Shown: piece by piece, positions 21,878 to 58,451 of the stretch | How positions within the stretch are numbered: the stretch's first letter is position 1 | Layout: each line of letters begins with the position of its first letter | Source of the DNA: Pseudanabaena sp. FACHB-2040 | Lineage (GTDB): Bacteria; Cyanobacteriota; Cyanobacteriia; Phormidesmidales; Phormidesmidaceae | Direction of reading: 5' to 3' | Assembly: GCF_014696715.1 (NCBI RefSeq) | Contig: NZ_JACJQO010000019.1 | Location: forward strand, 62,001 to 126,000 | DNA: 64,000 nucleotides | Position numbers and translations under genes: made by a program | Notes under the pieces: generated by a model | The model's input: only the letters and a program-made list of their open reading frames with translations | Databases searched by the model: none | What the model was told of the DNA's origin: nothing

Positions 21878-22756
21878 CTAGTCTTCGTGCCAGCCTTTCA
21901 ACTGTAGGTAAACCAGAATCAACGCTAAGCCCAGCAGGAGCGTTGCAGCCGCCGCTGCGTAGCCAAAGTCAAACTGGGTAAACGCCTGCTGATAGATGTA
22001 GTAGACCAAAATATTAGTGGTATTGAGCGGCCCACCACCGGTAATCACATAAATCTGCTCAAAGCTCCTCAGAGTAAAAATAGCCGTCGTCACCATTGCA
22101 AACAGTAGAGTAGGCCGCAAACCTGGCAGAGTAATAAACCAAAACTGCTGCCAGGGATCGGCTCCATCTAGTTCAGAAGCTTCATACCGGTTCACTGGAA
22201 TTGTTTGCAGCCCCGCTAAAAACACGACTAGGTTAAACCCTAGCTGCTTCCAGGCACTCAAAAGGATAATCACAGGCATGGCCCAAGTGGTGCTGCTGAG
22301 CCAAGGCACTGGTTCCCCGCCCCAGCTCAACAGCAAACTGTTCACTGGTCCATCGGTTTGAAATAGCCAGCGAAACCCCAGCCCAACAGCCACCAGCGAC
22401 GTAACCGACGGAATAAAATAGGCCGTTCGCAGCAGCCCCCGCAGGGCCATGCTCTGATTTAGCAGCACCGCCAATCCTAGGGGAATCACCAGGCTAGGCA
22501 CTACCGTTGCCAGCGTGAAGTAGAGCGTGTTGACAACTACCTGCCAAAAGTCAGCGTCTATCGCCAGCCTCAAATAGTTGCTTAGCCCCACCCACTGCAG
22601 CCCTGAGCGAGTAAAGCTACCTGTCGTAAAGCTCAAACCTACCAGATAGGCAATCGGCCACAGCACGAAAATACCTAGCAGCAACAGCGCTGGAGCCAGC
22701 AGCAGCCAGGCCACCCGCGCATCCTTCGTTACGTCAGTCTGGCGTCGGTCTACCAT
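21878..22756 (-). CDS. Sugar-type ABC transporter permease (MalF/UgpA family), unpaired
   Basis: A 292-residue inner-membrane permease with six predicted helices. The EAA loop that contacts the ATPase is EASELDGADPWQQFWFITLP near residue 190. It belongs to the carbohydrate-uptake MalF/UgpA group. The frame opens at TTG 22768; I prefer the ATG at 22756 (MVDRRQTDVTKDARVAWLLL). The usual partners, a second permease, a solute-binding protein and an ATPase, are all missing nearby, so it must work with subunits encoded elsewhere. Substrate unknown. Confidence 0.88.
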   Translation of the reverse strand: MVDRRQTDVTKDARVAWLLLAPALLLLGIFVLWPIAYLVGLSFTTGSFTRSGLQWVGLSNYLRLAIDADFWQVVVNTLYFTLATVVPSLVIPLGLAVLLNQSMALRGLLRTAYFIPSVTSLVAVGLGFRWLFQTDGPVNSLLLSWGGEPVPWLSSTTWAMPVIILLSAWKQLGFNLVVFLAGLQTIPVNRYEASELDGADPWQQFWFITLPGLRPTLLFAMVTTAIFTLRSFEQIYVITGGGPLNTTNILVYYIYQQAFTQFDFGYAAAAATLLLGLALILVYLQLKGWHED

Positions 22757-22828
22757 AATCAGCCCCAAACATCTGCTTTATCTTCGTACAAATTCTCGCG
22801 GCAGATCTGGCTTATTGGTAAGCAGACA

Positions 22829-22923
22829 AAAACAAAAAGAGCCAGGCCGTGCGAGCCTGACTCTGGACTTGTAATTGAGAGGAGAACAGCCGACACCTGA
22901 TCGAGGTTGGGAAATGCTCTCTT
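22829..22923 (-). ncRNA. Predicted small RNA with its own promoter and terminator
   Basis: Minus-strand signals in order: a -35-like TTGCAA (22957-22952), a 16-base spacer, a -10-like TAAACT (22935-22930), then about 95 bases without a translatable frame, ending in a strong terminator (22864-22838). The predicted RNA has a small 5' hairpin (ACCT-CGATC-AGGT), then the pyrimidine-rich stretch TTCTCCTCTC, which could pair with GAGAGGAGA-type ribosome-binding sites, then the terminator. The layout resembles Yfr1-like riboregulators, but the conserved Yfr1 core is absent. Prediction only. Confidence 0.45.
22838..22864 (-). terminator. Strong minus-strand terminator in the 22.8 kb gap
   Basis: Read on the minus strand, AGAGTCAGGC pairs with GCCTGGCTCT over 10 bp (one G-T) around the loop TCGCACG, followed by TTTTTGTTTTTG. 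There is no credible protein gene upstream of it on that strand, which suggests a non-coding transcript. Confidence 0.85.
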
Positions 22924-23262
22924 AAATTCAGTTTAGCTTATTGATATAAATTTGCAATAGTGAATTTGAAAATTTTCCGGGACAGGAGACAGTCCCCACT
23001 AGAAGCTGAAGTTTTCAACTCCTAGACTGAATCAAGGCAATCACTAGCCTATTGAATTTGACAATACTTCTCAAATAGTCAACTCGCATTAGGGGCCTAG
23101 AAATGCAGCCCCAGCGGCTTGGAGCGGCTATAAGCAAACTAAGGAATAGCCAAAAGGGCAGCTTGAGCCATTCAGAGACAGGCGACAATCTACAAACGCC
23201 TTCAGCCAATTCCCTTTTAAGGGATCGGGTAGTAGGCTTCGCTATACAAGAGGTAGAACCCC

Positions 23263-24225
23263 ATGAAAGCAATCCGGGTGCATCAGTTTGGTGGCCCTGA
23301 GGTGATGGAGTTGGAAGACGTTCCCACTCCCAAACTAGAAGCGGGTCAGGTGCTCGTTCGAGTTGAGGCAGCCGGAGTCAATCCTGTAGACACTTACATT
23401 CGGGCCGGCAGCTATGCCCGCAGGCCAGAGCTGCCGTTTACACCCGGTATCGACGGCGCTGGAACGGTAGCTGGTGTAGGCACAGGGGTTAGCGGCATTG
23501 AGGTCGGAGCGCGGGTTTATGGCGGTTGGCCCAGTAGCGGCACCTATGCGGAAATGGCGATCTATCCTGCAGAGCAAATCTATCCCCTGCCGCCGCAGAT
23601 TTCCTTTCAGCAGGGCGCAGGGATCTTTGTGCCCTACTCTACCGCTCACCGCGCCCTGTTTTCTAAGGGGCAGGCTCAGTCGGGAGAGACCGTCTTGGTG
23701 CATGGAGCCACGGGCAGCGTAGGGCTGGCCGCAACTCAGCTAGCCGTCGCTGCTGGAATGCGGGTGCTCGGTACCGGAGGCACTCCCGAAGGTCGCAGCC
23801 TGGTTTTGGATCAGGGGGCCAGCCAGGTTTTTGATCATCACAGTCCAGATTATCCGGCCGAAATTTTAGCTGCCACTGCAGGCCGAGGGGTGGACGTAAT
23901 TCTAGAGATGCTGGCTAATGTCAACCTGGAGCAAGATCTGAATCTAGTCGCCTCCTATGGTCGAATTGTGGTGATCGGCAGCCGAGGCTCCCTCGAAATC
24001 AACCCAAGAGCGGTCATGAGCAAGGAGTCAATTGTGACGGGGCTGACCCTGTTTAATACCCGCCCAGAAGACTTAACCCAAATTCAGAAAGCCCTCCAAA
24101 TCGGCTTGCAGGACGGCACTTTGAGGCCCGTTATCAATCGAGAGTTTTCTTTGGCAGAGGCCAATCAGGCGCACCGCTGGTTACTTCAGCCGGGAGCACA
24201 GGGGAATCTGGTCTTAATACTCTAG
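23263..24225 (+). CDS. NADPH:quinone reductase, zinc-independent MDR family
   Basis: A 320-residue medium-chain dehydrogenase/reductase starting MKAIRVHQFGGPEVMELEDV, typical of quinone oxidoreductase (QOR/zeta-crystallin). The substrate-domain block EAAGVNPVDTYIRAGSYARR spans residues about 35-54, and the nucleotide-binding motif is VLVHGATGSVGLAATQLAVA, near residue 145. Zinc-binding cysteines are absent, as expected for QOR. It is predicted to reduce quinones or other alpha,beta-unsaturated carbonyls with NADPH in the cytosol. psb32-like follows after 81 bases on the same strand. Confidence 0.9.
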   Translation: MKAIRVHQFGGPEVMELEDVPTPKLEAGQVLVRVEAAGVNPVDTYIRAGSYARRPELPFTPGIDGAGTVAGVGTGVSGIEVGARVYGGWPSSGTYAEMAIYPAEQIYPLPPQISFQQGAGIFVPYSTAHRALFSKGQAQSGETVLVHGATGSVGLAATQLAVAAGMRVLGTGGTPEGRSLVLDQGASQVFDHHSPDYPAEILAATAGRGVDVILEMLANVNLEQDLNLVASYGRIVVIGSRGSLEINPRAVMSKESIVTGLTLFNTRPEDLTQIQKALQIGLQDGTLRPVINREFSLAEANQAHRWLLQPGAQGNLVLIL

Positions 24226-58172: not shown

Positions 58173-58451
58173 AATTTCGCCTCTCAGAGTAATGAATTGA
58201 AGTGAGTTAGAGGCGCGTTCCTTCGGGGAGTCCCTACTTCCGTCCTGTGCTAGAGCCAATTAGGCTCTTACTAGCTCGGATGAACGATTTACTTTCTGTA
58301 TTCATTTTTACCGTTTTGACTTTTTCTGTCAAGACAAAAGGCCAAACTTGTCACGGATTCAAGACATTACTAGGAGTATAGACTTTATTCTCGCCACCTC
58401 TATCCTGTATGGCTCTCTGCTGAGTCCCTTCTTCCTACACATCTATTAGCA

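Follow-up and report, generated by a model that had tools for sequence, protein, structure and literature searches.

A probable IsaR1-type small RNA with a lineage-specific 5′ hairpin in a cyanobacterial genome

The 64,000-nucleotide stretch of DNA analysed here (the window) carries on its minus strand a small RNA gene that is real and not a chance arrangement of signals. It is best read as a 5′-extended variant of the IsaR1 family, a kind of RNA that is already known, and we consider it likely that the element encodes a trans-acting sRNA of the IsaR1 type, repressed by Fur and extended by a 5′ hairpin specific to this lineage. In Synechocystis 6803, IsaR1 has a length of 68 nt (PMC6202907), is induced by iron stress and repressed by Fur (PMC6202907, PMC3516471, PMC7760821), and is widely conserved (PMC7760821). 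It spares iron by blocking the translation start of iron proteins (ferredoxin, superoxide dismutase) when iron is scarce, and its published targets include Fed1 (petF), SodB and SufBCDS (PMC8136909). The identification, which is made through Synechocystis relatives and through the published length, regulation and targets of the 6803 RNA, is strong but indirect. In this lineage the RNA has an extra predicted 5′ hairpin, which is absent from the ~60-68 nt short form; because this hairpin brings the predicted length to 90-95 nt instead of ~68 nt, the RNA is filed as an IsaR1 variant and not as a plain member.

The gene lies in a gap of 506 bases between a minus-strand ABC permease and a plus-strand quinone oxidoreductase-like gene (23263-24225). 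The permease (21878..22756, minus strand; Pfam BPD_transp_1) is of the sugar type, closest to UgpA/MalF types below the cut-off, and is a possible read-through partner; its start codon is ~72 nt downstream of the sRNA terminator, and a PAS kinase comes after it. The sequence-only reading had described a minus-strand TTGCAA-16-TAAACT promoter, ~95 transcribed bases and a terminator, and all of these features were located in the sequence. The -35 box TTGCAA (22957-22952; TTGACA in most relatives) and, after a 16-base spacer, the -10 box TAAACT (22935-22930) are supported by the sequence and by alignment A6, and around and behind the -35 box lies an inverted repeat, the promoter/operator CTATTGCAAATTTATATCAATAAG (22937..22960), which aligns with the Fur-box-like promoters of the short form. 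The predicted sRNA occupies 22828..22922, with its start placed near 22922 from the -10 box and its end placed from the terminator. It comprises a predicted 5′ hairpin (22882..22921) with the closing stem GAGAGCA/TGTTCTC, the core GTTCTCCTCTCA (22876..22887), a putative anti-Shine-Dalgarno seed recognised from alignment A6 and from predicted pairing with the sodB and petF ribosome-binding sites, and a terminator stem-loop AGAGTCAGGCTCGCACGGCCTGGCTCT with an 11-pair stem, followed by TTTTGTTTTT (22838..22864). The tract TTCTCCTCTC is at 22886-22877 and the T-tract TTTTTGTTTTT ends at 22828, all on the minus strand. No ORF of at least 60 aa lies inside the sRNA, in agreement with the claim that a protein gene is absent between promoter and terminator, and the nearest one on the minus strand is upstream, at 23015-23272.

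The predicted fold is unusually stable: the 100-nt stretch reaches -36.2 kcal/mol (z = -4.4) and is more stable than 200 of 200 dinucleotide shuffles, and the terminator, with z = -4.2 alone, is the main source of this stability. It had been proposed that the CU tract lies between two hairpins and could pair with ribosome-binding sites. The pairing is borne out by prediction for sodB and petF. The layout needs one correction: in the minimum-energy fold of the window, GTTCTC is taken up by hairpin 1 as its 3′ arm, and the tract is single-stranded only from CTCTCA on. In most relatives the core is more open than in the window fold. A 5′ hairpin is found in long-form relatives with differing sequences. 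As sequence alignment does not bring hairpin 1 into register, RNAalifold on a MAFFT alignment of long forms gave zero pairs and no formal covariation for this hairpin, and the long-form model (R2) is therefore sequence-only.

Within the family, 8 of 14 genera have the promoter and a terminator together with the 13-base core TGTTCTCCTCTCA, and every long form in alignment A6 carries the same TGTTCTCCTCTCA. In a draft genome of the same genus, two contig ends carry the element with 83-84% identity, and in G384, G009 and G018, where it lies 5′ of orthologous permeases, the promoter, TGTTCTCCTCTCA and the terminator are retained while nearly all else differs. A class-wide BLAST search with the window RNA found its own genome only; DNA similarity is too low for BLAST to see the relatives, and pattern and profile searches were thus needed. 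Using the pattern of core plus T-run, 20 of 65 family genomes were matched, compared with 5 in the reversed control. The R2 profile gave clear members in genera g1, g2, g6, g7, g8, g9, g11 and g12, and no match or marginal matches only in g3, g4, g5, g10, g13 and g14. As R2 was built from 12 of its members, the independent matches are those in G006, G007, G008, G017, G019 and G331. Seven loci with an exact core and no promoter (L036, L044, L045, L046, L051, L054 and L062) were rejected as chance or other things.

Several related elements were also seen. L182 (G017:C63:2875-3019) is a diverged second copy that retains promoter and terminator and in which the core has become GTTTTCCTTTTG; it may be decaying, or it may be a paralogue that acts on other targets. 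In family f19 (G093 and G103), a related RNA that keeps the core and has similar promoters is present in at least two adjacent copies (L065 and L066). L079 and L080 (family f37) have a conserved TTGACATTGAGTTTCTCCTCTCATACAGCAAGC and a terminator without the family promoter layout.

Beyond the family, a class-wide scan revealed a shorter RNA of ~60-68 nt in other families, in which the same promoter is followed directly by AGTGTTCTCCTCTC, then by AAGGATCGGC and then by the terminator. The core GTGTTCTC(C/T)TCTC is common to the short forms of families f24, f31 and f32. The covariance model of the short form (R1) matched 116 of 118 genomes of f32, with one match per genome, and all five genomes of genus g55 (Synechocystis), one of which is Synechocystis salina; when the Synechocystis form was scanned for by name, the matches were S. 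salina and one metagenome-assembled genome only. The Synechocystis core is GTGTTCTCTTCTC, with a predicted transcript of 66-68 nt, and from these loci we infer that GTGTTCTC(C/T)TCTC is probably the core of IsaR1. The window core TGTTCTCCTCTC fits this pattern, and the core does not vary among the long forms of A6. R1 did not match the window at E ≤ 1, and other long forms matched at E 0.009-0.5 only; given these weak scores, the proposed homology of long and short forms rests on the promoter, the 13-base core and the targets. The sequence was looked for in open papers without a match, and Rfam gave nothing above threshold for the window RNA or its relatives, the weak ar15 and P8 matches being attributed to chance. 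Elsewhere in the window, on the minus strand at 58212-58288, Rfam recognises a glutamine riboswitch aptamer (RF01739, 50 bits), in keeping with the cyanobacterial origin of the DNA. In most f32 genomes (L118-L147), a second inverted repeat ATTATTGAAAAT...TTTTCATTAA lies ~30 bases 5′ of the promoter and resembles a tandem Fur box arrangement.

The window promoter was not listed by a generic sigma-70 scan, so the promoter call rests on conservation. A promoter matrix was trained exclusively on short forms from other families, with 37 distinct promoter sequences and an effective number of 3.9. Among ~128,000 window positions, the matrix ranked the window promoter first and second (the two strands of the same palindrome), and the true site was ranked first in 13 of 13 long-form loci; four core-only chance matches ranked 29th to 160th in their own loci. 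This matrix, which is independent of the core, is our main evidence and points to common ancestry of the two forms, or at least to common regulation. Its third high scorer in the window (15.7) is a plus-strand site at 23055-23078 in the same intergenic gap, which faces the quinone oxidoreductase gene and is possibly a second operator.

The promoter is an inverted repeat whose short-form versions resemble the cyanobacterial Fur box. The Anabaena FurA consensus is AAATAAATTCTCAATAAAT (PMC4005646), and TTCTCAATAA or TTCTCAATCA occurs in many short-form promoters as it does in this consensus. By FurA-box scoring, 49% of 47 anchored short-form sites reached p < 0.001 per site. Taken alone, the window operator resembles the published FurA boxes of Anabaena weakly (p = 0.006, anchored), and control of the window RNA by Fur is suggested by way of its family.

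These results bear on the possibility that the RNA is a separate sRNA whose anti-Shine-Dalgarno core is convergent with that of IsaR1 and which answers another signal. The low FurA-box score of the window, the weak covariance match and the lack of clear sequence similarity between long and short forms beyond promoter and core would fit such convergence. It is however unlikely, as the short-form matrix puts the long-form promoter first at every locus and sodB and petF, the targets predicted here, have been published as targets of IsaR1.

The sodB and petF loci were located by one chimeric query, which joined a SodB of E. coli type to a ferredoxin sequence of cyanobacterial type and was used for gene finding only, and the background starts for the pairing tests were ORF-based. 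As anticipated from the core, the ribosome-binding sites of both genes are complementary to it. In its own genome, the sodB site TTGAGAGGAGAGCA forms 14 contiguous bp with the core, equalled by none of 125 background starts; petF forms 8 contiguous bp only, which 14% of background starts reach. The duplex energies of both are below those of 52 of 52 background starts. Over its Shine-Dalgarno stretch, petF forms 10-18 contiguous bp in 8 of 11 relatives; poor pairing was found for petF of G331, G351 and G204 and for sodB of G015. The petF bases 5′ of GAGAGG track the RNA, with GUUG/CAAC in several genera and GCUG/CAGC in g8. Cognate petF pairing extends over 5.8 bases compared with 3.5 for swapped pairs (p = 0.0004; 11 distinct pairs, relatedness not corrected), and by duplex energy the cognate effect has p = 0.002; for sodB, duplex energy showed no difference between cognate and swapped pairs. 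In the own genome as a whole, TTGAGAGGA before ATG is in no excess (7 compared with 7 in the control), and four of the seven matches precede reading frames of at least 100 aa, including sodB and an NdhN-like frame. The latter, whose start with TTGAGAGGA is L221 (G000:C7:21693-21708), lies near ldpA and is a possible further target; we take it to be NdhN-like, and it had no NCBIfam match. Pairing with the ribosome-binding sites of iron-protein mRNAs (petF/fed1 and sodB) is a prediction.

The genomic context was compared with the possibility that the element is a cis-acting 5′ leader or attenuator of the ABC permease, or an actuaton, of the type known in Synechocystis (PMC5386190), whose terminator is sometimes read through. 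The same order of sRNA and permease is found in G001, G384, G009 and G018, with the sRNA directly upstream of the permease in the window genus and 54-93 nt upstream of it in G384, G018 and G009, and the terminator could act as a switch. In G022, G012, G390 and G019, however, the sRNA is no leader, as the gene that follows has the opposite orientation, and g2 genomes have a PAS kinase, similar to the one after the window permease, 430-470 nt beyond the sRNA; both contexts indicate that the RNA is retained without the permease. Conversely, seven permease orthologues (in G006, G007, G008, G011, G012, G017 and G019) lack the sRNA, and a pure leader has no need of the co-variation of core and petF in trans. 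We therefore regard a leader or actuaton as quite unlikely; read-through into the permease could still be a side function of the sRNA. A bolder and doubtful proposal is that IsaR1 here gained a 5′ hairpin partly covering the core, giving a gated seed, together with read-through into the sugar-type ABC permease and the sensor kinase. If this is true, a translational repressor and a transport operon share one promoter under iron control. A general anti-Shine-Dalgarno RNA like Yfr1, suggested by the CU-rich single strand flanked by two hairpins, is very improbable, given the different core, the conserved operator-like promoter repeat and the missing Rfam match for window and relatives, so that the layout noticed at first is a superficial likeness. 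The idea of a stand-alone sRNA with an anti-Shine-Dalgarno core, in contrast, gained strong support from conservation across families, opposite-strand next genes and the predicted pairing.

For the preferred reading, an IsaR1-type sRNA, we propose the following mechanism. When iron is sufficient, Fur with iron would occupy the inverted repeat and silence the promoter. When iron is scarce, Fur would depart and an RNA of ~90 nt would be transcribed, whose CU-rich core, flanked by the 5′ hairpin and the terminator, may pair with ribosome-binding sites of the type UGAGAGGA on iron-protein mRNAs, namely sodB, petF and probably others. This pairing would block the ribosome, and iron would be spared. 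Such an RNA would extend the iron-sparing RNA regulon to cyanobacteria without a covering Rfam family, and the length and structure of IsaR1-family RNAs would vary beyond those of the 68-nt form. The core-adjacent bases and the petF ribosome-binding site change together between genera, which is a natural experiment and opens the seed and a key target to testing with simple reporter assays.

Compared with known systems, the RNA shares with cyanobacterial Yfr1 a short length and a CU-rich unpaired stretch and differs from it in core, promoter and predicted targets; Rfam includes a Yfr1 model, which gave no match. RyhB of Escherichia coli is an sRNA under Fur control that represses iron-using proteins including sodB. 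Our RNA is predicted to work like RyhB in both respects, whereas no sequence relation and no Rfam match to it were found. RyhB has also been cited as a functional model (PMC3516471). Unlike IsaR1 of PCC 6803, with its 68 nt, the window RNA is predicted to have ~90-95 nt, an extra 5′ hairpin and another sequence 3′ of the core, and its neighbours are not ldpA and a crtH-like gene but an ABC permease and a PAS kinase. Like IsaR1, it is a free-standing sRNA whose homologues have Fur-box-like promoters, with a core kept in Synechocystis as GTGTTCTCTTCTC and predicted pairing with the ribosome-binding sites of petF and sodB, both published targets of IsaR1.
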